DNA of 64,000 bases from Dechloromonas sp. H13 (GTDB taxonomy: Bacteria; Pseudomonadota; Gammaproteobacteria; Burkholderiales; Rhodocyclaceae). The position numbers and the translations under genes were made by a program. Within the stretch, counting starts at the first letter, position 1. The number at the start of each line of letters is the position of its first letter. The notes under the pieces were generated by a model, which ran no database searches, was not told the origin of the DNA, and saw only the letters and a program-made list of their open reading frames with translations. Where the stretch lies: the NCBI RefSeq assembly GCF_009469615.1, contig NZ_SSXX01000010.1:1-64000 (forward strand). The letters run 5' to 3'. Positions 8,146 through 52,942 of the stretch are shown piece by piece.

Positions 8146-8718
8146 ATGCCCGACACTCCGTCAAGCGCCCCGGCAACCCGAATCCTGTTCGTCTGCATGG
8201 CCAATATTTGTCGTTCTCCCATGGCGGAAGCGGTGGCCCGTTCGGTCGCGGAGGCCCAGGGCATCGCCAGGTCGTACACTTTCGATTCCGCCGGCACCAT
8301 CGCAAACTTCGCAGGCCAGGTGCCGGACGACCGTGCCCGGCGAGTAGCCGCCGGAAGGGGATATTCGATGAGCGGCATCAAGGCCCGGACCATAGCGCTC
8401 AGGGATTTCGAGAAATTCGACCTGATCCTCGCTATGGACCGAAAAATCCTTCTTTCCCTGCAGAGAATCTGCCCCGAAGTGCATCAATCCAAAATCCGAC
8501 TCTTCCTGGATTATGTGCCGGACGAAACGGGCGACGACGTCCCTGACCCCTACTACGGGAACCTCGCGGGGTTCGAGCATGTGTTGGATCTTTGTGAAAG
8601 GGCGGCGCAAACGCTACTTCCACACACTTCGCAAAGCGATTCTCTTTCGGACGAAGCCAATACGCAGGGAGGCTTCCTGTCGCGTATCAGGGAGTTCCTT
8701 GCCCGACACCGCCACTGA
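8146..8718 (+). CDS. Low-molecular-weight protein-tyrosine phosphatase (EPS-associated, Wzb-like)
   Basis: 190 aa. The N-terminal CX5R(S) catalytic loop is CMANICRS (nucleophile Cys17, Arg23) and the general acid Asp134 lies in VPDPYYG, both hallmarks of LMW-PTPs. It would dephosphorylate the tyrosine-rich tail of the kinase encoded downstream, resetting the EPS polymerisation and export machine in the cytoplasm. The start at 8146 has GGAGG five bases upstream; the ORF remains open upstream but overlaps the preceding gene. The C-terminus (about 165-190) is longer than the core fold and is basic. First gene of the EPS locus. Confidence 0.93.
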   Translation: MPDTPSSAPATRILFVCMANICRSPMAEAVARSVAEAQGIARSYTFDSAGTIANFAGQVPDDRARRVAAGRGYSMSGIKARTIALRDFEKFDLILAMDRKILLSLQRICPEVHQSKIRLFLDYVPDETGDDVPDPYYGNLAGFEHVLDLCERAAQTLLPHTSQSDSLSDEANTQGGFLSRIREFLARHRH

Positions 8719-8741
8719 TCAGCCAGCGGTCAAAATCGCTC

Positions 8742-8767
8742 CGGCGGGTGCTATGCTTCACCCGCCG
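8742..8767. other. Stem-loop upstream of the EPS export gene
   Basis: Perfect 9-bp inverted repeat CGGCGGGTG / CACCCGCCG with an 8-base loop, located 24 bases after the phosphatase stop and 137 bases before the export lipoprotein gene. It has no T-run, so it is a Rho-type pause, an mRNA stability element or a protein site rather than a simple terminator. The rest of the 185-base gap holds a TATATA at 8856-8861 without a clear -35. Confidence 0.4.
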
Positions 8768-8903
8768 CTTGCCGGACGCATCCGTGAAATACTTCCTCGG
8801 AAGACAGGAATAGTTGCGTTATCCTGAACCCGCTTCCGTTATGATATCGGTCTGTTATATAGATCTGCAGGCATTGCCTGCAAACTCACTGGGGGAAATT
8901 TTT

Positions 8904-9530
8904 ATGTCCATCATTCGTTCCACTGCAAAGATCGGGGTCAAGTGGATGACCACGGCGCTTGTCGCCCTGGCACTTGTCGCATGCTCGTCAACCCGTCCGC
9001 CAGCCCCGGCCGCAGGATCGTCTACGGACTACAACTACAAAATCGGGCCAGGCGACAACCTCAGCATCGTGGTCTGGCGCAATCCCGAATTGTCGATGAT
9101 CGTCCCCGTGCGTCCGGACGGGAAGATTTCCGCTCCGCTCGTCGACGATCTCAACGCCATGGGCAAGGATCCGACAACGCTGGCGCGCGATATCGAAAAG
9201 GAACTGGGGAAGTTCATTCGCGATCCGATCGTCACCGTCATCGTGACCGGATTCGTCGGCCCCTACAGCGAACAGGTGCGCGTCGTCGGCGAAGCCGCCA
9301 GGCCGCAGACCCTCCCCTACAAGCAGCAGATGACCCTGCTGGACGTCATGATCGCCGTTGGCGGCATCACCGATTTCGCCGATGGCAACCGTGCGACCAT
9401 TCTCCGCGCCTCGGAGAATAACCAGCAGTACAGCGTGCGCCTCAAGGATCTGGTCAAGCGCGGCGACGTATCCGCGAATGTCGACATGAAACCGGGCGAC
9501 ATTCTGATCATCCCGCAGAGCTGGTTCTGA
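8904..9530 (+). CDS. Polysaccharide export lipoprotein (Wza/EpsE-like, XrtA-system type)
   Basis: 208 aa. It has a lipoprotein signal with lipobox LVAC (Cys27), then a Poly_export domain (YNYKIGPGDNLSIVVWRNPELS...VRPDGKISAPLVDDLNAMG) and a SLBB-type region (VRVVGEAARPQTLPYKQQMTLLDVMIAVGG). These hallmarks match outer-membrane polysaccharide export proteins of exosortase-A EPS loci (pepcterm_export family). It is anchored in the outer membrane facing the periplasm, where it would form the export channel or its periplasmic ring with the downstream chain-length protein. It is shorter than E. coli Wza (about 380 aa), as usual for this family. ATG 8904 has GGGGGA upstream; an in-frame longer start at 8814 lacks a lipobox at a normal distance. 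Confidence 0.92.
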   Translation: MSIIRSTAKIGVKWMTTALVALALVACSSTRPPAPAAGSSTDYNYKIGPGDNLSIVVWRNPELSMIVPVRPDGKISAPLVDDLNAMGKDPTTLARDIEKELGKFIRDPIVTVIVTGFVGPYSEQVRVVGEAARPQTLPYKQQMTLLDVMIAVGGITDFADGNRATILRASENNQQYSVRLKDLVKRGDVSANVDMKPGDILIIPQSWF

Positions 9531-9600
9531 CACTCGCAATGTGACATCCACCGCCGCGGCAGCAATTTACCCGCGGCGGTTACAAGTTCGGACTTCTCAG

Positions 9601-11157
9601 ATGGAAGATATTCTTCGACAGGTCTTGGTCGCCTTGCGCGCGACCTGGAAATACCGTCGCCTGGGCATGATTGCAGCATGGTTGATCGGCGCCATCGCTG
9701 CCGGTGTGATCTTGCGTATTCCCGACAAATACGAGGCTTCAGCGCGGGTTTTCGTCGATACGCAATCAATTTTGAAACCGTTGATGTCTGGCCTCACGGT
9801 ACAGCCGAATGTCGAGCAGCAGGTAATGATGCTCAGTCGCACCCTGATCAGCCGGCCCAATGTCGAAAAGCTGATCGCCATGGCCGAACTCGACAAGAAT
9901 CCGGGTAACAAGAACTCGCATGAGGATCTGATCGATCGCCTGATGAAGTCGTTGTTAGTCACGAACACCAACCGCGACAACCTTTACACCATTTCGTATC
10001 GGGACACCGACCCGGAAAACGCCCGGAAAGTCGTCCAGGCGCTCACTTCAATCTTCGTCGAGTCGAGCCTGGGAGACAAGCAACAGGACTCCACCTCGGC
10101 GCGCAAATTCATCGAGGATCAGATCCGTAGCTATGAAAAGAAACTCGAGGAAGCCGAAAACCGCTTGAAGGAGTTCAAACTGCGCAATGTCGACATGCAG
10201 ACCGAAGGCAAAGACAGTATCGATCGACTTTCGGAAATCGTCGCCAATTTGAACAAATCCAAACTGGAACTGCGTGAAGCAGAAAATTCGCGCGATGCGC
10301 TACGTCGCCAGATTCTGGGTGAAGAGCCCGTTCTTCTCCCCGATTCCTCTGGCTCGGATTCAGGTTTGTCCCTGCCTGAAATTGATGGTCGAATCGAGGT
10401 ACAGAAACGAAACCTTGACAACCTGCTACAAAAATATACTGACAATCACCCGGATGTAGTTGGTACGCGGCGCCTGATCAAGGAGTTGGAAGAACAGAAG
10501 CGCCAGGAAGTGATTGCCCGCCGCAAATTCGCCCAGGCCAACCCTGGCGCCGCGGTCAGCAACAATCCGGTCTATCAGCAGCTGAAGGTCTCCCTGGCTG
10601 AATCCGAGGCAAATGTCGCTTCATTGCGTGCGCGGGTGAGTGAATACGAATCGCGCTACAAGCGAGTCGCCAATCAGATGAAAAACGCACCTCAACTTGA
10701 GGCGGAGTTTGTCCAACTCAATCGCGACTACGAAATTCATAAAAAGAATTACGAACAACTCGTCAGTCGCCGGGAGTCCGCGGAAATTACGGGTAACCTG
10801 GAGTCGGCGCCCGGTGTGACGAACTTCCGTCTGGTAGATCCGCCCCGCGTGTCGCCCAAACCGGTTTCGCCCAACCGTCTGGCCCTTCTGCCGCTCGGCC
10901 TGCTATTCGCACTCGCGGGTGGATTCTTTGTCGCCTTTATCGCCAGCCAGTTGCGCCCGGTCTTTTTCGATGGGAAATCCTTGCGCGATGCGACAGGCCT
11001 GCCTCTCCTGGGCGTCATTTCCCTAGTACCCAGCGATACACTCCTCCAGCAAGAGCGCGCAAGTCTGCGTCGCTTCATGCTGGCCGGTGCAGGGCTCGTT
11101 ACGGCTTATATTGCGGGCCTTTCATTGCTTACGATTCTCTCCCATCGTGCTGCCTGA
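9601..11157 (+). CDS. Polysaccharide chain-length determinant (Wzz/PCP type, XrtA-system)
   Basis: 518 aa inner-membrane polysaccharide co-polymerase. An N-terminal transmembrane helix (about 20-40) is followed by a Wzz domain (YEASARVFVDTQSILKPLM), a long periplasmic coiled-coil region (about 165-420), a Pro-rich stretch before the second helix (VSPKPVSPNRLALLPLGLLF) and a third hydrophobic helix at the C-terminus (about 490-512). It sets chain length and links the polymerase to the export lipoprotein; the tyrosine kinase follows as a separate protein nine bases downstream. Start ATG 9601 gives MEDILRQVLVALR, as in homologs; a GTG at 9541 is in frame but neither start has a strong ribosome site. 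Confidence 0.9.
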   Translation: MEDILRQVLVALRATWKYRRLGMIAAWLIGAIAAGVILRIPDKYEASARVFVDTQSILKPLMSGLTVQPNVEQQVMMLSRTLISRPNVEKLIAMAELDKNPGNKNSHEDLIDRLMKSLLVTNTNRDNLYTISYRDTDPENARKVVQALTSIFVESSLGDKQQDSTSARKFIEDQIRSYEKKLEEAENRLKEFKLRNVDMQTEGKDSIDRLSEIVANLNKSKLELREAENSRDALRRQILGEEPVLLPDSSGSDSGLSLPEIDGRIEVQKRNLDNLLQKYTDNHPDVVGTRRLIKELEEQKRQEVIARRKFAQANPGAAVSNNPVYQQLKVSLAESEANVASLRARVSEYESRYKRVANQMKNAPQLEAEFVQLNRDYEIHKKNYEQLVSRRESAEITGNLESAPGVTNFRLVDPPRVSPKPVSPNRLALLPLGLLFALAGGFFVAFIASQLRPVFFDGKSLRDATGLPLLGVISLVPSDTLLQQERASLRRFMLAGAGLVTAYIAGLSLLTILSHRAA

Positions 11158-11166: not shown

Positions 11167-12084
11167 ATGAGTCTGATTGAACAAGCAGCCAAGCGTCTCG
11201 AGCAACTCCGCCAGGCTGGCGTCGAACTACCCGAAGATGACGTCCAAACGCAGATCCAGGCACGGACGCCTGCAGCAGTCCGCATCGACAGCCCGGCCAA
11301 GGAATCTGCAGTTCCACCAGTTACCAATTCCATGCGCTCCAGGCAGGTTGACCTTAATCTCGATGCAATTGCCGCATCGGGTCTTTTGGTCCCTCAAACC
11401 ACCAGCACAAAACTGGCGAACGAATATCGCGTCATCAAGCGTCCACTGATCGCCAATGCCATGGGACGCGGCGCCGCACCAGTCGAAAATGGCAATCTCA
11501 TCATGGTCACCAGCGCGTTGCCGGGAGAAGGAAAGAGTTTTACTGCAATCAACCTGGCGATGAGCATCGCGATGGAACTGGACAATACCGTCATGCTCGT
11601 GGATGCGGACGTTGCCCGTCCATCGATTCTGAACATGTTGGGCCTTCCTCCCGCCGAAGGCCTGTTGGACGTCGTACAAGAAAATTCGGTGGATATCTCC
11701 CGCGTGCTGTTGCGAACGAACGTCGAAAAGCTCTCGATCCTACCCAGCGGTACGATGCACGCCCGTGCCACCGAACTGCTGTCGAGCGATGCCATGATCC
11801 GCTTGCTCGAGGACATGTCAAAACGCTATCAGGACCGGATCATCATTTTTGACTCCCCGCCGTTGTTGCTGACTACGGAAGCCAGGGCCCTGGCCACGCA
11901 CATGGGGCAGATCGTAATGGTCGTTCACGCCGGACAAACTGCTGAGGCTGCCGTCAAGGAAGCCATCGGAACCATCGATGCCTGCCCGGTGAAAATGATG
12001 GTCTTGAATCAGGTCCGCCAGGCTGCACCTGAAGGCTATGGGTACGGTTACTCGTTCGCTTACGGATATGGCAATGAAAAATAA
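11167..12084 (+). CDS. BY-type tyrosine kinase (CpsD/CapB-like, XrtA-system)
   Basis: 305 aa. Walker A is ALPGEGKSF (Lys123), Walker A' is VMLVDADVARPS and Walker B is IIIFDSPPLL, the bacterial tyrosine-kinase set. The C-terminus is a tyrosine cluster (GYGYGYSFAYGYG), the usual autophosphorylation site. It acts in the cytoplasm on the inner-membrane chain-length protein encoded just upstream; cycles of phosphorylation and dephosphorylation by the LMW phosphatase control EPS polymerisation. Residues 1-75 are a poorly conserved linker. The end of the gene overlaps the start of the outer-membrane protein gene by 11 bases. Confidence 0.92.
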   Translation: MSLIEQAAKRLEQLRQAGVELPEDDVQTQIQARTPAAVRIDSPAKESAVPPVTNSMRSRQVDLNLDAIAASGLLVPQTTSTKLANEYRVIKRPLIANAMGRGAAPVENGNLIMVTSALPGEGKSFTAINLAMSIAMELDNTVMLVDADVARPSILNMLGLPPAEGLLDVVQENSVDISRVLLRTNVEKLSILPSGTMHARATELLSSDAMIRLLEDMSKRYQDRIIIFDSPPLLLTTEARALATHMGQIVMVVHAGQTAEAAVKEAIGTIDACPVKMMVLNQVRQAAPEGYGYGYSFAYGYGNEK

Positions 12085-13822
12085 CCCCGTGCGGATTTGC
12101 TCGGCATCGGGCATCGTTTTTTTCTGTTTAACTTCCGTTGCTCCAGCACAGCAATTCGGTAGCACTTACGCCACACCCGCTTCTGCTACCACTGACCAGA
12201 ACATTCCAAGCGCTACGGCCTCGCAACCGCAAAATTTGACTTCCGTTGCACCGGCACCGCAATTTGGAGGTGCCTACGTTACACCGGTTTTCACAAACAC
12301 CAACCAGAACATCCCGGGCACCACAGCCTCGCAACTGCGCAGATACGGAGAAAGCAGATCACAACAGGACCCTCCCGCCATTCCTGCGCGCTCCTGGAGT
12401 GTCGTGCCTCGGGTGCGCTGGACGGAAACCCTGACGGACAATGTCAATCTGTCGGCCCAGAAGGAAGGCGACCTGGTCAGCACGCTCGCTCCCGGGGTTC
12501 GCATCAATGCCAATACCGCCCGGCTGAACATGGTCCTCGACTACGATTTGGTCGGCTATGCATATGCGCGAAATTCGGATTACAACAACTTTCAGAATTA
12601 TCTGAATACGTTCGGCACGCTTGAAGCGATAGACAACTGGTTCTTCGTCGATTTCAGCGGCTACGTTTCGCAACAGATGATTTCGCCGTTCGGAACCCAA
12701 TCTGTCAGTAATGCGAACATCAACGCAAACCGTGCCCAGACCCAAACCTACCAGGTCTCTCCCTATATCCGCGGCCAACTGGGTGGCGATATCGCTGAAT
12801 ACTTCCTGCGCTACAACGCCACCACGACGAGAACTTCAAATGGGTCCGTATCCGACGTGGACATCTCGCAGTGGATCGGTCAGGTTCGTGGCGGAACCCC
12901 CTTCCAGAATCTTGCCTGGACAATCGACGGCAGCCAGCAGAATACCGACTACTCGCTGGGACGGGATTACGATGATGAACGCGTTCGAGCCATCCTGACC
13001 TATCGCCTGTTTCCACAACTGCGCATCTCCGGTAGCGGTGGCCAGGAATCGAACAACTACATTACGATCAACAACGAAAGCTACTCGACCTACGGCTATG
13101 GACTCGACTGGCGGCCAACAGATCGTACGATCGTCGCCGGGTTCCAGGAAAAGCGCTTTTTTGGCTGGGGTCATAATGTCAACATCAGCCATCGCTTCCC
13201 CCTGACAGGTATCCAGTACACCGATGTGCAAGACGTGGCCTTTCTTTCCAGCGGATACACCCCGCCCGGCCAGGGAACGGTCTACGACCAATACGACGCC
13301 TTGCTCGCCAACCAGTATCCCGACCCCGTTGCCCGTGCCGCCTATATCAACAACCTCCTGAATCAGGCTGGCATTGCGCCGAATTCCCAGGCGGTATACG
13401 GCTACCTTAACAATCGGCCACAGGTGCGGCGTACCCAGCAGTTATCGCTTGTCCTTTATGGAGCCCGCAATTCCATTACTTTCCGCGGGACACGCATCAC
13501 CGACGAAACCTTGTGGGTGGCCGGCGGCATTGACGATCCCACCAATCCATTTTCGAAAGTCATTCAAACTGGCTACAGCGCCATTCTCGCCCATCGCCTT
13601 ACGCCGCTGACCAGCTTGAATGTTGGCGCTCTCTACCAAAAGACCGACGCTCCTTCGAACACGGCACTCAACAACGACCTGACGATGTTCCAGGTCGGCG
13701 TTTCGTCCCGTCTGGGCGCACGAACCGTCGGAACGATCAATGCACGCCGCTCGGTCTATAGCAGCGAGTCGAATCCCTACAACGAGAACGCCCTGAGCGC
13801 GTCGCTGATTTTTTCCTTCTGA
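12074..13822 (+). CDS. Outer-membrane beta-barrel protein of the XrtA EPS system (TIGR03016-like)
   Basis: About 582 aa. A signal peptide (hydrophobic SGIVFFCLTSVAPAQQ, cleavage after APA) is followed by a 36-residue tandem duplication and then a long run of alternating amphipathic strands (SWSVVPRVRWTETLTDNVNLS ... ending ENALSASLIFSF, with the terminal Phe typical of outer-membrane barrels). It matches the pepcterm outer-membrane family that sits between the kinase and ATPase in these loci, and would form the outer-membrane pore or polysaccharide exit channel. The ATG at 12074 is preferred; an ATG at 12068 is also in frame. Both lie inside the kinase gene. The role as exporter is inferred from position and fold. 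Confidence 0.85.
   Translation: MKNNPVRICSASGIVFFCLTSVAPAQQFGSTYATPASATTDQNIPSATASQPQNLTSVAPAPQFGGAYVTPVFTNTNQNIPGTTASQLRRYGESRSQQDPPAIPARSWSVVPRVRWTETLTDNVNLSAQKEGDLVSTLAPGVRINANTARLNMVLDYDLVGYAYARNSDYNNFQNYLNTFGTLEAIDNWFFVDFSGYVSQQMISPFGTQSVSNANINANRAQTQTYQVSPYIRGQLGGDIAEYFLRYNATTTRTSNGSVSDVDISQWIGQVRGGTPFQNLAWTIDGSQQNTDYSLGRDYDDERVRAILTYRLFPQLRISGSGGQESNNYITINNESYSTYGYGLDWRPTDRTIVAGFQEKRFFGWGHNVNISHRFPLTGIQYTDVQDVAFLSSGYTPPGQGTVYDQYDALLANQYPDPVARAAYINNLLNQAGIAPNSQAVYGYLNNRPQVRRTQQLSLVLYGARNSITFRGTRITDETLWVAGGIDDPTNPFSKVIQTGYSAILAHRLTPLTSLNVGALYQKTDAPSNTALNNDLTMFQVGVSSRLGARTVGTINARRSVYSSESNPYNENALSASLIFSF
12131..12346 (+). repeat. In-frame 108-bp tandem duplication in the outer-membrane protein gene
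   Basis: Two copies of a 108-base unit (36 codons) begin with ACTTCCGTTGC at 12131 and 12239. The encoded copies share LTSVAPA-QFG--Y-TP---TNQNIP-TTASQ-type sequence but differ at many positions, so the duplication is old or has been recombined. It repeats part of the signal-peptide end, so a second LTSVAPA lies in the mature protein. Confidence 0.85.
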
Positions 13823-13826: not shown

Positions 13827-15053
13827 ATGTACGAATCATTTTATGGTTTGACCAGCAAGCCATTCCAACTAAATCCCGACCCGGCTTTTTATTTCGCCAG
13901 CAAGCAGCACCGTCGCGCCACGGCCTACCTCGAATATGGGATGCACCAGAACGAAGGGTTCATCATCATCACCGGCGAGGTCGGCGCCGGGAAGACGACC
14001 ATCGTCCGAGGACTGCTCGACAGCCTGGACCAGGACAAGATCGTTGCAGCGCACCTGGTCAGCACGCAACTCGACGCAGATGACACCTTGCGTCTGGTTG
14101 CGGCCGCATTCGGAATTCGCACCAAGGATGTGTCGAAATCCGATGTGCTGATGTCGCTCGAAGCCTTTCTCATCAGCATGACCGGCAAGGGAAAACGTTG
14201 CCTGCTGATTGTCGACGAGGCGCAGAACCTGACATCGCGCGCTGTCGAAGAATTGCGGATGCTTTCCAATTTCCAGTTCGGCAACCACGCGCTGCTGCAA
14301 AGCTTCCTTATCGGCCAGCCCGAGTTTCGCGACATCCTGCAAAGTCCTCACATGATGCAGTTTCGTCAGCGCGTCATCGCTTCCTGTCATATCGGTCCGA
14401 TGGATGTCGAGGAAACCGCGGCGTATGTCGAACATCGCCTGAAATGCTCCGGGGCGGGTGAATGGCCCAAGATATTGCCCGATGCGCTTGAGGCGATATT
14501 CAAGGCGAGCAATGGCATTCCTCGCCGTATCAATGCCGTCTGTGATCGCCTACTGCTCTCGGGATACCTCAACGAAAAAAGAGAGTTTGGCGCAATCGAT
14601 GTCGAGGAGGTTGCACGGGAGATCCTGGAGGAAACCGAAGGCGGTCGTCCGGCTCCCCGAACACAGATGGAGATGGAGATGGGAATGGAGATCACCGCCA
14701 CAGAAGCGGTGCACCATGCCATACCAGATATCGATGCTCAGGTATCCCGGGTCATTTCCGGCCTGGTCCAGCCGCAACAGAAGTCGTCGCGGGGCAGAAA
14801 GAAGCAACTGGCTGCCCACTTGCAAGGCGTCAACACCGGCGACCTGCAACAACTTCTTGCTGGACTGAACGCCGGCCAGTTCAACGACCGTCTGGCGCGC
14901 CTCGAACGTGGCCTCCATCAACTCGAGCTCATCAACACGACGACCCTGGCCCTGCTTCACCAGGTGCTCGCCGCTGCTCCCGACACTGATCCACAGAATG
15001 CCAAGCCCCGCAAGGCCCCCAGGGACACCAAGGCCCCCAAGGAGCAAGAATGA
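13827..15053 (+). CDS. XrtA/PEP-CTERM-associated ATPase (ExeA-like AAA)
   Basis: 408 aa. It opens MYESFYGLTSKPFQLNPDPAFYF as in ExeA/GspA-type ATPases. Walker A is GEVGAGKTT (Lys56), Walker B is LLIVDEAQNL, and a sensor region follows (SFLIGQPEFRDIL, GIPRRINAVCDRLL). The family is a constant part of exosortase-A EPS loci; its exact job is not known, but an energy-using role in export or secretion is likely. Residues about 280-292 form a Met-Glu repeat encoded by GGAGAT units, and the C-terminus is a Lys/Pro-rich tail. Gene follows the outer-membrane protein gene by four bases and overlaps wecB by four (ATGA). Confidence 0.9.
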   Translation: MYESFYGLTSKPFQLNPDPAFYFASKQHRRATAYLEYGMHQNEGFIIITGEVGAGKTTIVRGLLDSLDQDKIVAAHLVSTQLDADDTLRLVAAAFGIRTKDVSKSDVLMSLEAFLISMTGKGKRCLLIVDEAQNLTSRAVEELRMLSNFQFGNHALLQSFLIGQPEFRDILQSPHMMQFRQRVIASCHIGPMDVEETAAYVEHRLKCSGAGEWPKILPDALEAIFKASNGIPRRINAVCDRLLLSGYLNEKREFGAIDVEEVAREILEETEGGRPAPRTQMEMEMGMEITATEAVHHAIPDIDAQVSRVISGLVQPQQKSSRGRKKQLAAHLQGVNTGDLQQLLAGLNAGQFNDRLARLERGLHQLELINTTTLALLHQVLAAAPDTDPQNAKPRKAPRDTKAPKEQE

Positions 15054-16222
15054 CGGCGTCGCAGTGGCCCGCCAGTCTCGGGCCTGTACTCTGTGTTGTT
15101 GGCGCGCGCCCGAATTTCATGAAAATGGCGCCGATCCTGCGTGCCTTGGCAGCAAACACACCTGTCATTCCCGCACTGCTTGTGCACACCGGCCAACATT
15201 ACGACCGTGAGATGAGTGACAAGTTGTTCGAAGACTTGAATCTGCCTCGCCCCGACATCAATCTCGACGTCGGTTCCGGTTCCCACGCCGTTCAGACGGC
15301 AGAGGTGATGCGCCGTTTTGAGCCGGTGCTGGACACGCATGTTCCGTCCTGCGTCATCGTGGTCGGCGACGTCAATTCGACGCTGGCCTGTACGCTGGTT
15401 GCTGCCAAGAAAGGCATCCCCGTGGTCCACGTCGAGGCCGGTCTGCGCAGTTATGACCGCGCAATGCCGGAGGAGATCAACCGCGTATTGACCGATCAGA
15501 TCGCCGATCGTCTATATACGACCGAACGCAGCGCCGAGGTCAATCTGGCACGCGAGGGCATCACGCCGGAACGCGTTCGTTTCGTGGGCAACGTCATGAT
15601 CGACTCACTGCTCTACAATCGGACCCTTGCACGGACTCCCCGGGAAACGCTGGCGGCGGCAGGCGCGAACCCGGCCTTGGTCGACCAGAAGTCGGGATAT
15701 GGCGTTGTTACCCTGCATCGCCCCGCCAATGTCGACGATCCGGAAACCCTGGCTGCATTGCTGGGTGTCCTGCGTGAAATTTCCGAACACCTGCCGCTGG
15801 TCTTCGCGATGCATCCGAGAACCCGGGCCAATATTCAGCGCTTCGGTCTCGCGAACCTGGTCGCGGGGCCACGGCTGGTCGTCCTGCCGCCGCAAGGTTA
15901 TCTTGAAATGCTCGGCCTGATGGCCGAATCCCGCATGGTATTAACCGATTCCGGCGGCCTTCAGGAAGAGACGACGGCGCTTGGCGTTCCCTGCCTGACG
16001 CTGCGCGAGAACACCGAACGTCCGATCACTGTCGAACAAGGTACCAATACGCTGGTCGGGCGCGATGTCGATGCCATTCGCGTTCAGGCTGGCGAAATCC
16101 TGTCGGGTCGGGGCAAGCAGGGACGCGTGCCGGAGCTTTGGGACGGACACGCCGCGGAACGCATTGCGGCCGATCTTGCGTCGTGGCTTGTTCGGGAAAT
16201 GCCGGCATCGTCAACGAACTGA
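15050..16222 (+). CDS. wecB: UDP-N-acetylglucosamine 2-epimerase (non-hydrolysing)
   Basis: 390 aa. It converts UDP-GlcNAc to UDP-ManNAc in the cytoplasm. Conserved stretches are VGARPNFMKMAPI, HTGQHYDREMSD, HVEAGLRSYDRAMPEEINRVLTDQIADRLYTTE, TLHRPANVD and the C-terminal TDSGGLQEE with ENTERPIT. The full length agrees with the family (about 370-390). It supplies a HexNAc precursor for EPS; the nucleotide-sugar dehydrogenase at 50755 could turn the product, or UDP-GlcNAc/GalNAc, into a uronic acid. Translationally coupled to the ATPase gene. Confidence 0.94.
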   Translation: MTASQWPASLGPVLCVVGARPNFMKMAPILRALAANTPVIPALLVHTGQHYDREMSDKLFEDLNLPRPDINLDVGSGSHAVQTAEVMRRFEPVLDTHVPSCVIVVGDVNSTLACTLVAAKKGIPVVHVEAGLRSYDRAMPEEINRVLTDQIADRLYTTERSAEVNLAREGITPERVRFVGNVMIDSLLYNRTLARTPRETLAAAGANPALVDQKSGYGVVTLHRPANVDDPETLAALLGVLREISEHLPLVFAMHPRTRANIQRFGLANLVAGPRLVVLPPQGYLEMLGLMAESRMVLTDSGGLQEETTALGVPCLTLRENTERPITVEQGTNTLVGRDVDAIRVQAGEILSGRGKQGRVPELWDGHAAERIAADLASWLVREMPASSTN

Positions 16223-16226
16223 TTTC

Positions 16227-37431: not shown

Positions 37432-37433
37432 GA

Positions 37434-44891: not shown

Positions 44892-45706
44892 TGCCAGCTT
44901 CTCATTACATCCAGCGTCGCATCGATCAATGCCGGCACCTCTTCAATTTCGCTGGTCTGCCAGAACGCAGGTCCGCTTGTCGTCCTGGCATCGACCTGCC
45001 AGCCCGCCGAACGCCATGCCTCGATCCGCTGCTGCGCGACAGGGGAAATTTCGCCCGACGGACGCGATGACATCTCAAGCCAAGCCACACGCCCGCCCTG
45101 CCCGGCACCTGAGAGCAACTCGGCAGCGGCAAGCCCTTCAGCCATCTGCGGGCTGATCGAATAGCCGGCAATTTCCACGTTGTTTCCCGCGTTCAGCTGC
45201 TGCCGCAGACCGTCGAGGACATCCTTCCCGTTTCCCGCCCCGAGCGCCGCGGCCGCCTTCAGGCGCATGAACTGCTGCCAGTGCTGTTTTCCGGAAATCA
45301 CCGGCTGCCAGAAAACGAAATTCGGCCTTTTCTTGAGGTCGACCGCAACAGACGCCGTCAGCAGGCACCCGGCGCGCAGCCCCCAAAGCGTCAACGGCAG
45401 CGGAAGACGGTCCTGAAGCCAGGCGACCCCAGTGGCGATATCCGCCCGCCAGTCCTCCCAACGCGCATCGCCAAACTCTCCGCTGCTGTCGCCGCAGCCC
45501 AGCATGTCGAGTTGCAACACCCCGTACCCGGCCTCGCCGAGCGCCCGCGAAAACAGGGCGGCCATGCGTCGCGCCTTGTTCATCTCCTCGGCAAAAGGGT
45601 GGACGTACAACACCGCGCCACGCGCCACGGAGCCCCGGGGTGGGTGAAAGATGCAGAAGCGCTGCCCGCCTGCAACCGGGAGAAAGAAGGCCTCTTGCAC
45701 TGCCAT
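44888..45706 (-). CDS. Exosortase-A-associated hydrolase 2 (TIGR03101-like), Arg at the nucleophile position
   Basis: 272 aa. Alpha/beta-hydrolase fold with VLYVHPFAEEMNKARRMAALFSRALGEAGYGVLQLDMLGCGDSSGEF, matching the hydr2_PEP family. The nucleophile elbow reads GLRAG, so Arg111 stands where hydrolase 1 has Cys111, and the protein probably has no hydrolytic activity by the usual mechanism. It may act as a partner or regulator of hydrolase 1. The gene is five bases after the ACP stop and overlaps hydrolase 1 (ATGA). Confidence 0.85.
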   Translation of the reverse strand: MAVQEAFFLPVAGGQRFCIFHPPRGSVARGAVLYVHPFAEEMNKARRMAALFSRALGEAGYGVLQLDMLGCGDSSGEFGDARWEDWRADIATGVAWLQDRLPLPLTLWGLRAGCLLTASVAVDLKKRPNFVFWQPVISGKQHWQQFMRLKAAAALGAGNGKDVLDGLRQQLNAGNNVEIAGYSISPQMAEGLAAAELLSGAGQGGRVAWLEMSSRPSGEISPVAQQRIEAWRSAGWQVDARTTSGPAFWQTSEIEEVPALIDATLDVMRSWQ

Positions 45707-46097: not shown

Positions 46098-47696
46098 ATG
46101 CGAAATTCCAACCTGCTTCCCGAACTGATCGCCATTGCGGCAGAGCGTTCACCCGATGCAACCGCCCTTGTCTTCGGCAAGGAGAACCAGACCTACGAAG
46201 GCTTGCAAGGAGCCGTCGCCGACTTTGCGGGCGGATTGATGCACCTCGGACTCCAGCGTGGCGAACGTGTCGCGATCTACCTGGAGAAGCGCTTCGAGAC
46301 TGTCATTGCCAGTTTCGGCGCCCCGGCAGCGGGCGGAGTATTCGTCCCGCTCAATCCCTTGCTGAAACCCGAGCAGATCGGCTACATCCTGCGCGACTGC
46401 AACGTTCGTGTTCTGGTCACTTCGCCGGAACGCCTCGCCCTGCTGTCGGAGACGCTGAATCAATGCCACGACCTGCGCCACGTGGTCGTTCTGGATTCGC
46501 ATGATCCCCTTCCATCGGGAGGACCCGTCGCCTTTTTCCGATGGAGCGAACTCCTGTCACTGCCCCGGAAAACCGGTCATCGCGTCATCGATACCGATGT
46601 CGTAGGCATTCTCTACACATCCGGGAGCACCGGCAAGCCCAAGGGAGTCGTGCTTTCCCACCGCAATATGGTCGCTGGCGCCAAGAGCGTGGCCAGTTAT
46701 CTTGAAAACCGTGCGGACGATACGCTGCTGGCCGCCCTCCCCTTATCATTCGACGCGGGTTTCAGCCAATTGACCACCGCCTTTCACGTCGGCGCCCGGG
46801 TCGTGCTGCTCAACTACCTGCTGCCCCGCGACGTACTGAAGGCCATCGGACGGGAGAAAGTCACCGGATTGACTGCTGTGCCGCCGCTTTACATCCAGCT
46901 GACCCAACTCGAATGGCCTGCAGACATCACCGAACACCTGCGTTACTTTGCCAACACCGGCGGGCGCATGCCGCGCGAAACACTGGCGTTGCTGCGCAAG
47001 AACCTGCCCAAGTCAAAACCCTACCTGATGTACGGACTGACCGAGGCATTCCGCTCGACCTATCTGCCACCCGCCGAAGTCGACCGGCGGCCGGATTCGA
47101 TCGGCAAGGCCATTCCGAATGCCGAAATCCTGGTATTGCGTGAGGATGGCTCCCCCTGCGCCCCCAACGAGCCGGGGGAACTGGTTCATCGGGGGGCGCT
47201 GGTCGGCATGGGTTACTGGAACGATCCGGAAAAAACCGCCGAGCGTTACAAGCCATTGCCGGCTCATACCCCGGGACGCGAGGCAGGGCTGGTCCTTCCG
47301 GAAATTGCCGTATTTTCCGGAGACACCGTTCGAATGGATGAAGACGGTTTTCTCTACTTCATCGGCCGCCGGGACGAAATGATGAAGACTTCCGGTTACC
47401 GGGTCAGCCCGACCGAGGTGGAAGAAATTCTCTATGCCACCCGACTGGTTGGCGAATGCGTCGCCTTCGGTGTCGATAACGATGTGCTGGGACAGGCAAT
47501 TCAGGTCATTGCGACGCCACCCGCCGGCAACACGCTCGATACCGCAGCGCTGCTGGCGGAATGCCGCGCCCGTATGCCGGCTTACATGGTGCCCGCCGGA
47601 ATCGAGGTACGCGAAGGACCATTGCCACGCAACCCGAACGGAAAAATCGACCGAAAAACCCTATCGACCGAGTGGGTCGAGAAAAACACCGCCTGA
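46098..47696 (+). CDS. Exosortase-A-associated acyl-CoA/acyl-ACP ligase (TIGR03098-like)
   Basis: 532 aa, ANL superfamily. Motifs: YTSGSTGKPKGVVLSHRNM at 173-191, YGLTEAFRSTYLPP, SGDTVRMDEDGFLYFIGRRDEMMKTSGYRVSPTEVEE and the Lys in NPNGKIDRKTL. It matches the ligase_PEP_1 family found in exosortase-A loci. It adenylates a carboxylate and passes it to CoA or, given the ACP next door, to the ACP phosphopantetheine. Substrate unknown. Divergent from the ACP operon and 29 bases before the PLP decarboxylase gene. Confidence 0.9.
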   Translation: MRNSNLLPELIAIAAERSPDATALVFGKENQTYEGLQGAVADFAGGLMHLGLQRGERVAIYLEKRFETVIASFGAPAAGGVFVPLNPLLKPEQIGYILRDCNVRVLVTSPERLALLSETLNQCHDLRHVVVLDSHDPLPSGGPVAFFRWSELLSLPRKTGHRVIDTDVVGILYTSGSTGKPKGVVLSHRNMVAGAKSVASYLENRADDTLLAALPLSFDAGFSQLTTAFHVGARVVLLNYLLPRDVLKAIGREKVTGLTAVPPLYIQLTQLEWPADITEHLRYFANTGGRMPRETLALLRKNLPKSKPYLMYGLTEAFRSTYLPPAEVDRRPDSIGKAIPNAEILVLREDGSPCAPNEPGELVHRGALVGMGYWNDPEKTAERYKPLPAHTPGREAGLVLPEIAVFSGDTVRMDEDGFLYFIGRRDEMMKTSGYRVSPTEVEEILYATRLVGECVAFGVDNDVLGQAIQVIATPPAGNTLDTAALLAECRARMPAYMVPAGIEVREGPLPRNPNGKIDRKTLSTEWVEKNTA

Positions 47697-47725
47697 TTTC
47701 GCCATCTTTCGAGGCCCGAAACCCC

Positions 47726-48970
47726 ATGTCGCTTTCTGAACGTCCGCTTCCCGTTCATGCACCGATGAATCAATTCGGCGTTGCTGCCGGCCAGTTGCTG
47801 GTTGGTGGCATCCCCCTGGAACGCCTTGCAGCACGAGTCGGCCAGACCCCGTTCTACGCGTATGACCGGCAAATGCTGAAGACTCGCGTCGCCGAGTTGC
47901 GCACTGCACTTCCGCAAGCCGTCAAGTTGCATTATGCGATGAAGGCCAATCCGATGCCGGCGCTAGTAGGGGTCATGGCGGGCCTGGTCGATGGTATCGA
48001 CGTCGCTTCCGGTGGCGAATTGAAGGTCGCGCTGGATGCCGGGGCGGCCCCGAGGGAAATCAGCTTTGCCGGACCGGGCAAGCGGCGGACAGAATTGACG
48101 CAGGCGGTCGCTGCCGGCGTTCTGGTAAATATCGAATCGCTCCGTGAGGTTCATGAGCTGGCAAGCATTTCTGCCGAGACTGGCTGTGCCGCTCGGGTAG
48201 CGGTTCGCGTCAATCCCGATTTCGAACTCAAGGGATCCGGCATGAAGATGGGGGGCGGCCCCAAGCAATTTGGCGTCGATGCCGAAGCCGTACCGGAATT
48301 GCTGGCCGAAGTCGGGCGCGCAGGCCTGAGTTTTGAGGGTTTCCATCTCTTCGCCGGCTCGCAGAATCTCAGCGCGCAATCGATCTGCGAGGCGCAACGG
48401 CAATCATATGAGTTGGCCTTGAGGCTTGCCGCAAGCGCTCCGGCACCGGTTCGCTTCCTCAATTTGGGAGGGGGCTTCGGCATTCCCTATTTTCCCGGCG
48501 AACGGCGCCTCGACCTGACACCGATCGGCGAAAATCTCGAGAAACTTCTTCACCGTGCCAGTGCCGACATGCCGGCAGCAGAACTGGTCATCGAACTGGG
48601 GCGTTACCTGGTCGGCGAGGCCGGAATTTACGTCTCCCGGGTAGTCGACCGCAAGATTTCGCGTGGCCAGATTTTCCTTGTGGTCGACGGCGGGTTGAAC
48701 CATCACCTTTCTGCTTCCGGAAACTTCGGCCAAGTGATCCGCAAGAATTACCCCGTGGCAATCGGGAATCGCATGGAATCCGGGCCGACGATCACCGCGT
48801 CCGTCGTCGGCCCCCTATGCACCCCGCTCGATGTGCTGGCAGACCGCATGCAACTCGCGGATGCCTGCCCGGGCGATTTGGTGGTCGTATTCCAGTCCGG
48901 CGCCTACGGTGCCAGCGCCAGTCCGCAACAGTTCCTCGGGCACCCTGGGCCAATCGAGGTACTGGTCTAA
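47726..48970 (+). CDS. Exosortase-A-associated PLP-dependent decarboxylase (TIGR03099-like)
   Basis: 414 aa, fold type III (alanine racemase/diaminopimelate decarboxylase) family. PLP Lys73 is in HYAMKANPM; other marks are NPDFELKGSGMKMGGGPKQFG, NLGGGFGIPYF, ELGRYLVGEAGIYVSRVVDRK and QSGAYGASASPQQFLGHP. It matches dCO2ase_PEP1. By analogy to butirosin BtrK, which decarboxylates a glutamyl group on an ACP, it might act on an aminoacyl-ACP formed by the ligase (inference). ATG 47726 has a GAGG 11 bases upstream; a longer ORF overlaps the ligase gene. Confidence 0.9.
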   Translation: MSLSERPLPVHAPMNQFGVAAGQLLVGGIPLERLAARVGQTPFYAYDRQMLKTRVAELRTALPQAVKLHYAMKANPMPALVGVMAGLVDGIDVASGGELKVALDAGAAPREISFAGPGKRRTELTQAVAAGVLVNIESLREVHELASISAETGCAARVAVRVNPDFELKGSGMKMGGGPKQFGVDAEAVPELLAEVGRAGLSFEGFHLFAGSQNLSAQSICEAQRQSYELALRLAASAPAPVRFLNLGGGFGIPYFPGERRLDLTPIGENLEKLLHRASADMPAAELVIELGRYLVGEAGIYVSRVVDRKISRGQIFLVVDGGLNHHLSASGNFGQVIRKNYPVAIGNRMESGPTITASVVGPLCTPLDVLADRMQLADACPGDLVVVFQSGAYGASASPQQFLGHPGPIEVLV

Positions 48971-49248
48971 GGGGCATCCCGCATATTGCGATAGTGTGTC
49001 CGCGGCCGTCTCGGTCCTTCCCTGGCCGGACTCGACCCGAACCCGTTTGGCATCACGACCACCGCGCAGAGGCAGCAAAATCAAGGCGTCCGAAGTGTTT
49101 GTCGGACACCGTGAAATACTGCACAGGCCGTCCTTACTCACCCCGATATCATTGTCAGCAACATGGTAGCGGTACTGGACGGACATCCGGACAAGCCGCC
49201 TTATGCGTACCGAATCCCGCTCGACGGGTTGCGCACAGAGGAATGAAC

Positions 49249-50631
49249 ATGCTTCAAATATTCAACGGCTGGTTTCGATGGCGCCATCTGGCCCAGATGC
49301 TCTTCGACTTCTCGTTTGTCATCGTCGGCATCCTCATCGCGGTGATGTGGGTGGGCAACGGCCTGCCGATCAATTACAAGCATGTGATTCTGTTTGCGCT
49401 GATTCTCGCTGCCACCATGTTGCTGATCAATTCGTTGCTTGGCCTCTATCAGCGAGTTCACAACCGCACCGTGACCGAATCCAGGGCTCGGGCCGTACTT
49501 TCTCTGTATCTGTCGGTACCGCTAGCCTATGGAATTTTCGGCCTGTTTCCCGTCACGACCTTCAGCCGGGAGTTCATGCAACTCTCCGCGCTGTCGGCAA
49601 TTTTCGGCATGCTGGTCAATCGCGTGAGCGCCCCGCGGGAATCGTCCTCGGGACTGCTTTCGCGGCGTATTCTGGTATTCGGCACCGGCGCTCGCGCCCT
49701 TGCGGTAAAAAATGCACTGAACAAATCCGATCCCTCGGCCCAGATCGTCGGCTTCTTCCCCAGCCCGAATGAAGACGGCGCAGCAGTGCCGATCGATCAG
49801 ATCCTTTCGCGCAGCCATTCCCTGCTTGACACCGCCAAGGCGCTCGACGTCCATGAGATCGTCGTCGCACTGAGCGAGCGTCGCGGTGGTTCCATGCCTC
49901 TGCGGGAACTCCTCGACTGCAAGCTGCACGGCATCCGTGTTATGGATCTGGCCAGCTACTTCGAGCAGGCCCTCGGCCAGATCCGCCTCGAATCGCTCTA
50001 TGCGGGATGGCTCATATTTGGTGACGGATTTAGACAAGGCCTGTTCCGCAGCGCCGTGAAGCGCTTGTTCGACATCGTTTCCGCGTTGATCCTGCTGATT
50101 CTTGCCGCCCCAGTCATCCTCGTGACCTCCTTGCTGATCATCATCGAGAGCGGGACGCCCGTGCTGTATCTTCAGGAACGCGTCGGACGCAACGGGCGAT
50201 TGTTCAAGGTCATAAAATTCCGCAGCATGCGTACGGATGCTGAAAAGGATGGCAAACCGATCTGGGCACAGAAACAGGATGACCGCACGACGAAAATCGG
50301 CCGCATCATACGAAAGCTGCGCATTGACGAACTCCCGCAACTCTATTGTGTGTTGCGTGGCGACATGAGCCTGGTGGGCCCGCGCCCGGAACGTCAATTC
50401 TTCGTCGACCAGCTCACCAACGAAATTCCGTTCTATGCCGTCCGCCACAGCGTCAAGCCAGGCCTGACCGGCTGGGCTCAAGTACGCTACCACTATGGCG
50501 CGACCGTCGAGGACTCGGCCGAGAAGCTGCAATACGATCTCTATTACGTTAAGAACCACTCCCTCCTGCTGGACCTGATCATCATGTTCGAAACGGTCGT
50601 TGTCGTACTGACGGGAAAGGGGGCACACTGA
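49249..50631 (+). CDS. EPS priming sugar transferase (undecaprenyl-phosphate, TIGR03013/EpsB-like)
   Basis: 460 aa. N-terminal four to five transmembrane helices (about 10-125), a CoA-binding-like domain (RRILVFGTGARALAVKNAL), another helix near 275-300 and the C-terminal PF02397 domain (KRLFDIVSALILLILAAP, YLQERVGRNGRLFKVIKFRSMRTDAEKDG, IGRIIRKLRIDELPQL, MSLVGPRPE, PGLTGWAQV). It transfers a sugar phosphate to undecaprenyl phosphate and starts the repeat unit. Start ATG 49249 is six bases after AGAGGA; the ATG at 49243 is too close. The 278-base gap before it is noncoding apart from a small dyad (GTCCGA-N8-TCGGAC at 49088-49107). Confidence 0.92.
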   Translation: MLQIFNGWFRWRHLAQMLFDFSFVIVGILIAVMWVGNGLPINYKHVILFALILAATMLLINSLLGLYQRVHNRTVTESRARAVLSLYLSVPLAYGIFGLFPVTTFSREFMQLSALSAIFGMLVNRVSAPRESSSGLLSRRILVFGTGARALAVKNALNKSDPSAQIVGFFPSPNEDGAAVPIDQILSRSHSLLDTAKALDVHEIVVALSERRGGSMPLRELLDCKLHGIRVMDLASYFEQALGQIRLESLYAGWLIFGDGFRQGLFRSAVKRLFDIVSALILLILAAPVILVTSLLIIIESGTPVLYLQERVGRNGRLFKVIKFRSMRTDAEKDGKPIWAQKQDDRTTKIGRIIRKLRIDELPQLYCVLRGDMSLVGPRPERQFFVDQLTNEIPFYAVRHSVKPGLTGWAQVRYHYGATVEDSAEKLQYDLYYVKNHSLLLDLIIMFETVVVVLTGKGAH

Positions 50632-50754
50632 TGCCGTCGACATCGCGTTTACCCCGCTGAAACGTCACCGAGCAAGAGGCTCTTGCAGGAACTACCCAAA
50701 GACCGGGAGCATCTTGCTTCCAAGAATTATCGTAACTGTTGAATGAGACCAACA

Positions 50755-52035
50755 ATGAAAACAATCGCCGTAGTCGGACTTGGTTATGTAGGACTTCCGC
50801 TTGCCGTCGAATTCGGCAAGAAATTCCGCACGATCGGGGTCGACCTCTCCGCAGAAAAAGTAGCCTGCTACAAGGAACACTACGATCCAACCGGCGAAGT
50901 CAGCACCGATGACCTAAAGGCGGCCACCTTCCTGGAAGTCGGCACCGATCCCGCAGCCCTCAAGCAGGCCGATTTTGTGATCGTCGCCGTTCCCACACCG
51001 GTGGATGATGCACGTCAACCCGATTTCAGCCCTTTGGTGAGTTCGTCGAAGGCTGTGGGTCAAAACCTGAAGGACGGCGCCATCGTTGTCTTCGAATCGA
51101 CGGTGTATCCGGGAGCAACCGAAGAGGTCTGTATCCCGATCATCGAGCAGCATTCCGGCAAGAAATGGAAAAAGGACTTCTTCGTTGGCTACTCTCCGGA
51201 ACGCATCAATCCCGGCGACAAGGAACGGACCGTCACGAAGATCGTCAAGGTGGTTTCCGGCGACACCCCGGAAACGCTCGCCACGGTCGCCGAGATTTAC
51301 GGAAGCGTAATCACTGCGGGGGTCTTCCCAGCCTCCAGCATCAAGGTGGCGGAAGCTGCGAAGGTCATCGAAAACACGCAACGTGACCTGAATATCGCCC
51401 TGATGAATGAACTGGCGATCATTTTCGACAAGATCGGTATCGATACGCTCGAAGTACTGCAGGCGGCGGGAACCAAATGGAACTTCCTGCCCTTCCGCCC
51501 CGGCCTGGTTGGCGGTCACTGCATCGGTGTCGACCCCTATTATCTGACGCACAAGGCGCAGAAACTTGGCTACCACCCGGAGGTGATTCTCGCTGGTCGC
51601 CGCATCAACGACGGCATGGGCAAATTCATCGCCGAACAAACCATCAAGCTGTTGGTGCGCAATGGGCATCCGATCAAGGATTGCCCGATCATCGTTCTTG
51701 GTCTAACGTTCAAAGAAGACTGTCCGGATCTTCGCAACTCCCGGGTCATAGATGTCATACGGGAACTCGAGTCCTATGGTGCGAAGGTAATCGTCCACGA
51801 CCCGGTCGCGGAGCACCGGGAAGCGCAACATGAATATGGGGTTGATTTGCTGCCATGGGAACAGTTACCGAAAGCCGGAGCAATCGTCGCTGCGGTCGGC
51901 CATGCGGAATTCAAGGCACGCCCGGCCAGCGACTTCGTTGCCAAACTGCAAAGCGGAGGGGTCATTACCGACGTCAAGTGCATGCTCGATGCTCCGTCCT
52001 TCAAGGCACAAGGCATAAACATCTGGCGACTGTAA
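50755..52035 (+). CDS. Nucleotide-sugar dehydrogenase (TviB/WbpO-like UDP-HexNAc 6-dehydrogenase)
   Basis: 426 aa. The NAD motif is VVGLGYVGLPLAVEFGKKF at the start, the catalytic Cys256 lies in GGHCIGVDPYYLTHKAQ, and FVGYSPERINPGDKERTV plus GLTFKEDCPDLRNS are family marks. The sequence is closer to Vi-antigen TviB and WbpO than to UDP-glucose dehydrogenases. It oxidises C6 of a UDP-HexNAc to the uronic acid, giving an acidic EPS sugar which the amidotransferase could amidate. The 123-base gap before it holds a small GC-poor hairpin (50672-50686) and no gene. Confidence 0.92.
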   Translation: MKTIAVVGLGYVGLPLAVEFGKKFRTIGVDLSAEKVACYKEHYDPTGEVSTDDLKAATFLEVGTDPAALKQADFVIVAVPTPVDDARQPDFSPLVSSSKAVGQNLKDGAIVVFESTVYPGATEEVCIPIIEQHSGKKWKKDFFVGYSPERINPGDKERTVTKIVKVVSGDTPETLATVAEIYGSVITAGVFPASSIKVAEAAKVIENTQRDLNIALMNELAIIFDKIGIDTLEVLQAAGTKWNFLPFRPGLVGGHCIGVDPYYLTHKAQKLGYHPEVILAGRRINDGMGKFIAEQTIKLLVRNGHPIKDCPIIVLGLTFKEDCPDLRNSRVIDVIRELESYGAKVIVHDPVAEHREAQHEYGVDLLPWEQLPKAGAIVAAVGHAEFKARPASDFVAKLQSGGVITDVKCMLDAPSFKAQGINIWRL

Positions 52036-52045
52036 CCCGTTGTCC

Positions 52046-52942
52046 ATGAAATCCCGTCCCGCAAACTACTTTCAGCTTCGCCCGTTGGCCTTCGGCTCGG
52101 CAATGTTGCTGAGTAGTTTTGGCGGGAATGCATTGGCCGATGTAATCAAGCCTCCCTCGACCCAATTGGCTGCTTTGCGCAATGAAGCCAGGACTTACGA
52201 ACATGGCGAGGGAGTAAAGCGGGACACTGCCAAAGCCATCCAGCTTTATTGCGAAGCTTCCCGACTTGGCGATGCAGAATCCCAGTACAGCCTTGGCTGG
52301 ATGTATGCAAATGGTCGCGGCATGCCCCGCGATGATGCCACGGCTGCATACTTCTTCAATCTGGCGGCAAAACAGGGCCACCCGCAGGCGCAGCGCATGC
52401 TGCGACAGGTAGGCGACCCGGTAACCAAGCCGCCTGAGTGCCTGTTCGACAGCGACGGCCATGACATTGTCGCCAGGGCCGCGCCGGATCACCGCAAGGT
52501 AATGGAATTGGTGATGAGACTGGCGCCTGAATACGGCGTGTATCCTCGCTTGGCAATGGCAGTCATCCGCACCGAATCGAATTTCAATCCAGGCGCCGTT
52601 TCACCCAAAAACGCCCAGGGCCTGATGCAGTTGATCCCCGAAACAGCGGCACGCTTCAACGTAAAGAAACCCTTCGACCCGGAGGAAAACATTCGCGGCG
52701 GCCTGGCTTATCTGAGATGGCTATTGGCCTATTTCAAAGGCAATGTCGCACTGGTAGCTGCTGCCTACAACGCCGGCGAAGGCGCGGTAAACCGCTACGC
52801 CGGTATTCCGCCCTATGCCGAGACCCAGGGCTACGTCAAACGCATCCGCGAGACGTTCAAACGCGATGAGCACCCGTTCGATCCGTCGGTCACCGAACCC
52901 TCTCCCGAACTGCCGCGCATTGCCAGTCGCAAGTCGATGTAG
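52046..52942 (+). CDS. Lytic transglycosylase with Sel1-like repeats
   Basis: 298 aa. A signal peptide (LAFGSAMLLSSFGGNALA) is followed by two Sel1 repeats (about 50-130: SQYSLGWMYANGRGMPRDDATAAYFFNLAAKQGH) and a C-terminal SLT domain with catalytic Glu177 in RTESNFNPGAVSPKNAQGLMQLIPETA and later AAYNAGEGAVNRYAGIPPYAETQGYV. It would cut peptidoglycan in the periplasm, making room for the EPS export complex. Such enzymes are common in exosortase-type EPS loci. It directly follows the dehydrogenase gene and is the last plus-strand gene of the locus. Confidence 0.9.
   Translation: MKSRPANYFQLRPLAFGSAMLLSSFGGNALADVIKPPSTQLAALRNEARTYEHGEGVKRDTAKAIQLYCEASRLGDAESQYSLGWMYANGRGMPRDDATAAYFFNLAAKQGHPQAQRMLRQVGDPVTKPPECLFDSDGHDIVARAAPDHRKVMELVMRLAPEYGVYPRLAMAVIRTESNFNPGAVSPKNAQGLMQLIPETAARFNVKKPFDPEENIRGGLAYLRWLLAYFKGNVALVAAAYNAGEGAVNRYAGIPPYAETQGYVKRIRETFKRDEHPFDPSVTEPSPELPRIASRKSM

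Follow-up and report, generated by a model that had tools for sequence, protein, structure and literature searches.

The window analysed here is a stretch of 64,000 nucleotides from Dechloromonas sp. H13, on contig NZ_SSXX01000010.1 (121.7 kb). It carries a gene cluster for an extracellular polysaccharide (EPS) of the XrtA type, in which the EPS genes go together with a protein-sorting module made up of an exosortase (xrtA), the prsK-prsR-prsT genes (prsKRT) and proteins tagged with a PEP-CTERM tail. The cluster has the EPS-side features of this type and lacks two features that define the sorting side, the exosortase and the PEP-CTERM substrates.

Gene content of the cluster

A profile search of the window found 17 of 17 XrtA/PEP-CTERM-associated families above their NCBIfam cut-offs between 8814 and 50631 (TIGR03027, 03007, 03018, 03016, 03015, 03006, 03019, 03087, 03088, 03108, 04063, 03097, 03100, 03101, 03098, 03099 and 03013). 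All 17 frames are open and cover almost the entire models (EpsB_2 from model position 24). The first-pass annotation, made from the sequence alone, had recognized nearly every companion family of XrtA, and each family it named is among these 17. The companion genes, some of their neighbours and the two places where relatives carry sorting genes are given below. Coordinates of open reading frames (ORFs) run from the first possible start codon, stp2 excepted, and several true starts probably lie further in.

8814–9530 (+), EPS export lipoprotein; TIGR03027, 241.4 bits (cut-off 180)
9541–11157 (+), chain-length determinant; TIGR03007, 551.4 bits (cut-off 278.85)
11167–12084 (+), tyrosine autokinase; TIGR03018, 283.9 bits (cut-off 230.65)
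12038–13822 (+), outer-membrane protein; TIGR03016, 363.9 bits (cut-off 90.85)
13827–15053 (+), ATPase; TIGR03015, 418.5 bits (cut-off 324.5)
15050–16222 (+), UDP-GlcNAc 2-epimerase WecB; TIGR00236, 308.7 bits (cut-off 210.15)
16065–17069 (+), polysaccharide deacetylase; TIGR03006, 451.3 bits (cut-off 276.2)
17075–18112 (+), FemAB-family protein; TIGR03019, 525.9 bits (cut-off 260.35)
18120–19331 (+), glycosyltransferase stp1; TIGR03087, 574.1 bits (cut-off 316.65)
19332–19350, putative deletion junction 1, the place of xrtA (about 1.5–1.6 kb in relatives), now 19 bases; comparison with relatives
19351–20523 (+), glycosyltransferase stp2, start ATG; TIGR03088, 552.8 bits (cut-off 409.05)
20545–22452 (+), amidotransferase; TIGR03108, 1079 bits (cut-off 816.9)
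22389–23666 (+), glycosyltransferase stp3; TIGR04063, 671.9 bits (cut-off 442.05)
23668–24888 (+), GT4-type glycosyltransferase; among the matches listed all below cut-off, best TuaC, 176 bits
24881–26170 (+), O-antigen-ligase/Wzy-type protein, proposed polymerase; TIGR03097, 488.3 bits (cut-off 188.1), and PF04932 Wzy_C, 74.7 (cut-off 31.7)
43995–44891 (−), hydrolase 1; TIGR03100, 350.6 bits (cut-off 168.45)
44888–45706 (−), hydrolase 2; TIGR03101, 308.9 bits (cut-off 202.75)
46098–47696 (+), acyl-CoA ligase; TIGR03098, 796.8 bits (cut-off 592.35)
47561–48970 (+), pyridoxal phosphate (PLP) decarboxylase; TIGR03099, 627.1 bits (cut-off 478.45)
48817–50631 (+), priming sugar transferase EpsB_2 (epsB); TIGR03013, 514.9 bits (cut-off 393.35)
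50632–50742, putative deletion junction 2, the place of prsK-prsR-prsT (about 6.3 kb in relatives), now 111 bases; comparison with relatives
50743–52035 (+), nucleotide-sugar dehydrogenase (ugd); TIGR03026, 386.3 bits (cut-off 189.8)

Two junctions where relatives carry sorting genes

Relatives were taken from a set of 120 genomes that includes that of H13. The H13 genus in the Genome Taxonomy Database (GTDB) takes in D. agitata is5 (G065, NZ_KI912532.1), D. denitrificans ATCC BAA-841 (G059/G491) and metagenome-assembled genomes labelled Azonexus and Dechloromonas. The usual order in the genus is export lipoprotein, chain-length protein, kinase, outer-membrane protein, ATPase, WecB, deacetylase and FemAB, continued by stp1, xrtA, stp2, amidotransferase, stp3, a glycosyltransferase and TIGR03097. 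xrtA lies directly after stp1 in G014, G046, G065, G068, G051, G020 and G024; in G014 and G046 the stp1 stop and xrtA start, and again the xrtA stop and stp2 start, overlap in ATGA. In the window 7 bases separate the FemAB stop (18112) from stp1 (18120), 19 separate the stp1 stop (19331) from the stp2 ATG (19351), and 21 separate the stp2 stop (20523) from the amidotransferase (20545). These gaps, which the first-pass annotation had given exactly, leave no room for xrtA.

The second junction, at 50632–50742, had been overlooked in that annotation. The interval between epsB and ugd holds three genes of PrsK/PrsR/PrsT family or size in all five relatives that were read (G065, G014, G068, G059 and G020). 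In D. agitata these score 911.6 (TIGR02916, PrsK), 756.8 (TIGR02915, PrsR) and 919.4 bits (TIGR02917, PrsT); they are PrsKRT-sized genes in G014, G068 and G059 and homologues of PrsK, PrsR and PrsT in G020. Within the stretches of G046 and G024 that were examined epsB was not found. A search of the 121.7 kb contig returned generic two-component similarity only (69 and 45 bits). The histidine kinase and regulator at 2250–4996 of the window were considered as PrsK/PrsR and rejected: the PrsK model, whose cut-off is 300 bits, gives only 82.4, and the regulator resembles OmpR. Sites resembling the sigma-54 consensus were also considered and rejected, with 16 matches in the window versus 12.2 expected and 18 of 100 shuffles reaching 16.

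Exosortase and PEP-CTERM searches of the genome

The H13 assembly comprises 3,664,442 bases in 62 contigs, with 100% completeness and 0.12% contamination. Across all contigs there was no match to the exosortase profile PF09721. Two further profiles were equally silent in this genome at E ≤ 10: TIGR04178, which matched its positive controls G014 and G059, and a profile built from 12 XrtA/XrtB sequences (six of them typed as XrtA, in two subtypes, or XrtB), which matched G014 and G027. An exosortase hidden in the window was looked for and rejected: none of the eight frames with at least 120 codons and at least four hydrophobic segments has the Cys-Arg-His pattern of exosortases, here a self-written regular expression based partly on active-site residues. 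The ORF at 54646–55869, just outside the cluster, encodes a membrane protein for which neither NCBIfam nor Pfam gives a match; it has about nine hydrophobic segments.

No credible PEP-CTERM tail was found either. A first search with PF07589 gave no match in the H13 genome, and its controls were also silent; repeated at E ≤ 0.1 with the relatives as control, it gave none in H13 and matches in 71 of the 120 genomes. At E ≤ 1, two H13 matches to PF07589 and one to TIGR02595 appeared, all below cut-off; TIGR02595 has 27 matches over many contigs of G014. None of the three weak matches is a C-terminal tail when read: one is the end of an apparent Lgt, one an off-frame stretch of an ABC permease, and one the N-terminal nucleotide-binding stretch of an oxidoreductase-like protein.

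The first-pass annotation had seen neither an exosortase nor a PEP-CTERM tail in the window, and both observations now extend to the whole genome. It had left two readings, an xrtA elsewhere in the genome or an EPS machine that works without protein sorting. An xrtA and PEP-CTERM proteins elsewhere were looked for and not found, which speaks against the former. The latter is favoured, and the evidence supports a sharper form of it: the state arose by loss, extends to prsKRT at the locus and is not unique.

Position of the locus among related loci

Four neighbouring proteins of the window and of 80 named loci were used to build a midpoint-rooted FastTree tree. In it the window forms a group with L093, L103 and L090 (support 0.99), and this group falls within a clade of 14 loci (support 1.0). 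Every other locus of this clade that is uncut by a contig end carries an exosortase. Among the named loci, L089, L090, L104, L120, L132 and L141 are without xrt and are uninformative, being cut by contig ends near stp1 or FemAB. One exosortase query used in labelling the loci (from G115) was a wrong-frame ORF, which could add only false presences, and the exosortase labels shown are all on the plus strand. Since the window's locus is nested among xrtA-bearing loci, the absence of the sorting module is, on this tree, a loss and not the ancestral state.

Further xrtA-less loci are found elsewhere in the tree: L127 (Acidovorax delafieldii), L161 (Zoogloea) and a group of L150, L157 and L168 (Hydrogenophaga and Comamonadaceae; support 0.99). 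An exosortase is present elsewhere in the genomes of L150 (an XrtB) and L161 (an XrtA); PF09721 finds none for L157 and L168. Hydrogenophaga sp. TGS_PRO26 (L168), bin-2 (L157) and A. delafieldii 2AN (L127) resemble the window in having the EPS genes and no xrtA, with stp1 adjoining the amidotransferase, and differ from it in their place in the tree and their central sugar genes. None of the three has a match to the XrtA/XrtB profile at E ≤ 10 or a PEP-CTERM match over cut-off. The A. delafieldii genome has a partial PF09721 match of 32.3 bits, over the 25.7-bit cut-off, in a 201-codon frame; its lack of sorting partners is probably like that of the window. Within 160 kb around the locus, the L168 genome has epsB and no PrsKRT homologue. 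Similar states have thus probably arisen two or three times, counted on the absence of exosortase and PEP-CTERM and not on prsKRT loss.

The closest comparison in detail is with D. agitata. Its locus has the same order as the window in two stretches, one running from the export lipoprotein as far as the second deacetylase and the other from hydrolase 1 as far as the lytic-transglycosylase-like gene. The central block is reversed and partly different in order; it shares the flippase, second amidotransferase, beta-helix, TPR and GNAT genes, and among the matches listed none corresponds to the window's CDP-sugar genes. Unlike the window, D. agitata has xrtA between stp1 and stp2, prsK-prsR-prsT between epsB and ugd, and eight PEP-CTERM matches.

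D. denitrificans (G059) is like the window in that stp1 and stp2 are not separated by xrtA, with about 140 bases left between them, as also in G060; in G027 an ORF of about 1.2 kb takes this place. Unlike the window, G059 has a divergent XrtA after TIGR03097, a separate XrtB, three PrsKRT-sized genes and PEP-CTERM proteins. A divergent XrtA behind TIGR03097 occurs in G059, G060 and G027 (typed in G059, at L043 8123–9769, and in G027, at L048 1195–1941) and points to relocation or exchange of the exosortase within the genus.

Occurrence in other genomes

In the relatives set FemAB (TIGR03019) is over cut-off in 50 of 120 genomes and PF09721 matches in 53. An exosortase accompanies FemAB in 48 of the 50; the exceptions are H13 and G096, where FemAB lies on a contig of only 5.3 kb. 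Among the 37 FemAB-positive genomes of the genus, 36 show both exosortase and PEP-CTERM matches, and H13 alone has neither.

A class-level draw of 369 genomes gave FemAB matches in 86. Of the 83 not already tested, 80 were searched with PF09721, which matched in 70; the other ten are also without a match to the XrtA/XrtB profile. Five of these (G176, G190, G223, G309 and G404) have clear PEP-CTERM proteins, which either argues against the simple expectation that tails occur only together with a detectable exosortase or reflects missing contigs or an unrecognized exosortase. The remaining five (G273, G282, G303, G320 and G393) have no PEP-CTERM match over the PF07589 cut-off, although G273 and G320 each have one TIGR02595 match (16.4 and 16.9 bits) just over the 16-bit cut-off. 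These were not counted as the same state because their FemAB is more distant and their loci are partial or rearranged where seen. A FemAB-positive genome without exosortase and PEP-CTERM is rare, and one with the full gene set is rarer still.

The reverse case, clear PEP-CTERM with no PF09721 exosortase and no FemAB, occurs in 12 of the 120 genomes (G001, G003, G007, G012, G023, G029, G048, G057, G063, G066, G069 and G081). Ten of them are 70–88% complete; G057, at 99%, matches TIGR02595 11 times and none of three exosortase profiles. Short frames of 183–227 codons weakly match the C-terminal part of the exosortase profile (19.5 to 40.9 bits) at G486:C447:6328-6819 and in G062, G047, G098, G445, G428, G287 and G331.

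Other genes of the cluster

7876–8718 (+), low-molecular-weight protein-tyrosine phosphatase, Wzb-like; NF007520, 68.6 bits, below cut-off 243; longest ORF, true start probably internal
26173–27123 (+), second polysaccharide deacetylase; PF01522, 85.2 bits (cut-off 23.1)
28593–30329 (−), asparagine-synthase-like amidotransferase, second copy; TIGR03108, 206.3 bits, below cut-off 816.9
34337–38210 (−), CDP-sugar module: CDP-glucose 4,6-dehydratase, PLP aminotransferase-like enzyme, PIG-L deacetylase and glucose-1-phosphate cytidylyltransferase-like protein
40414–41913 (−), MOP/Wzx-type flippase-like protein; NF007773, 197 bits, below cut-off 273
52040–52942 (+), lytic-transglycosylase-like protein with a TPR-like part; below cut-off only, best NF047373, 79.1 bits

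The CDP-sugar module probably makes an unusual amino- or deoxysugar for the EPS polymer. Three of its proteins are over cut-off (TIGR02622, 492.7; NF004856, 694.4; PF02585, 53.7 bits), and the cytidylyltransferase-like protein scores 217.3 bits with TIGR02623, below the cut-off of 300.25. An apiosidase-like glycoside hydrolase with a putative collagen-binding domain is also encoded within the cluster, at 27158–28561.

Discussion

We consider it highly probable that the H13 cluster is an XrtA-type EPS locus that has lost its protein-sorting module. In the ancestor, xrtA would have stood between stp1 and stp2, with prsK-prsR-prsT located between epsB and ugd, and both would have been cleanly removed in the lineage of the window. 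What is left looks like a complete Wzx/Wzy-type line, with priming transferase, glycosyltransferases, flippase-like protein and TIGR03097 as the probable polymerase, together with chain-length protein, kinase, export lipoprotein and outer-membrane protein. Four of its features, the priming transferase (TIGR03013), polymerase (TIGR03097/PF04932), Wzz-type protein (TIGR03007) and export lipoprotein (TIGR03027), are over cut-off. The family name of TIGR03097 is ‘putative O-glycosylation ligase’. The protein has a Wzy_C domain, and no other of this kind was recognized in the cluster; polymerase would be the simpler role for it, since no tagged protein is left to glycosylate. We infer that polymer is most likely still made and exported and, not being held to the cells by PEP-CTERM proteins, would be released as a soluble or loosely bound slime.

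Published work makes polysaccharide without sorting plausible. As related by Haft and colleagues, disruption of EpsH in Methylobacillus sp. 12S left methanolan production unaffected; several neighbouring genes are needed for it (PMC1569441); that the exosortase is dispensable for EPS production is to this extent already on record. PrsK, PrsR and PrsT were proposed in the same account as regulators of PEP-CTERM genes (PMC1569441), and the loss of prsKRT from its place would fit the loss of substrates. In Aquincola, an rpoN1 mutant is reported to continue EPS synthesis and to release the polymer, and overexpression of the PEP-CTERM protein PepA to restore EPS binding and flocs (PMC9850573). In a freshwater Sphingomonas, an ‘exosortase associated’ amidotransferase is listed among genes that affect colony morphology (PMC11340318).

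Several points weigh against our interpretation. The assembly is split into 62 contigs. The flippase-like and cytidylyltransferase-like proteins score below curated cut-offs. PrsKRT was not found on the 121.7 kb contig, the only one searched for these genes. The methanolan parallel is not exact, because the PEP-CTERM system of the Methylobacillus locus is described in PMC9850573 as ‘of a distinct type’. Finally, pairwise ratios of non-synonymous to synonymous substitution (dN/dS) between the window and D. agitata, which lie roughly between 0.11 and 0.41 for all 12 kept genes compared and were calculated from longest ORFs in partial overlap with adjacent genes, speak for function, but they include the time before the loss; no value was obtained for eight of the 12 genes when compared with G024 or for 11 of the 12 with G020.

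The same ratios bear on an unlikely alternative, that the locus is decaying, with the EPS cluster on its way out and the exosortase among the first genes to go. The loss of several genes has indeed begun, but the 17 companion frames are open with near-full model coverage, the ratios against D. agitata indicate purifying selection, and the observed losses are restricted to one functional module. Still less likely is a gap in assembly or binning that would have left xrtA and the PEP-CTERM genes on missing contigs. The contig count allows for this, and as ten of the 12 reverse-case genomes are incomplete, such loci may drop out of bins. However, the H13 assembly is complete by its estimate and almost free of contamination, the cluster is continuous through the two junctions at which relatives have the genes, and PEP-CTERM genes are scattered in relatives, as over many contigs of G014, with none found in H13. 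We give just as little weight to replacement by an unrecognized sorting enzyme with another C-terminal signal: profiles detect known families only, the multi-helix ORF at 54646–55869 matches none, and G059, G060 and G027 do move or exchange xrtA, but prsKRT is also gone from its place and the multi-helix frames, examined in the window only, lack the Cys-Arg-His pattern.

Loss of the sorting module with retention of EPS synthesis, the explanation we prefer, suggests a natural experiment in which the EPS half and the sorting half of the system are separable. We found no report of a natural XrtA-type locus without exosortase among the titles and abstract openings listed in searches of the open-licence literature. 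Many families owe the label ‘XrtA/PEP-CTERM system’ to their co-occurrence with the exosortase. That 17 of them are kept after loss of exosortase, neighbouring regulators and substrates points to polysaccharide synthesis as their role. A lineage of this sort also provides naturally occurring strains for studying the part that PEP-CTERM proteins play in polysaccharide binding and flocculation, a question of practical interest for wastewater treatment. More tentatively, and with somewhat less than even confidence, we speculate that XrtA-type EPS loci repeatedly shed the complete sorting module of exosortase, PrsKRT and tagged proteins under selection, which would change cells that bind a matrix and form flocs into cells that release their polymer in soluble form. 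If this is true, most of the ‘associated’ families, among them FemAB, stp1–3, the amidotransferase and TIGR03097, would be polysaccharide genes and not sorting genes.

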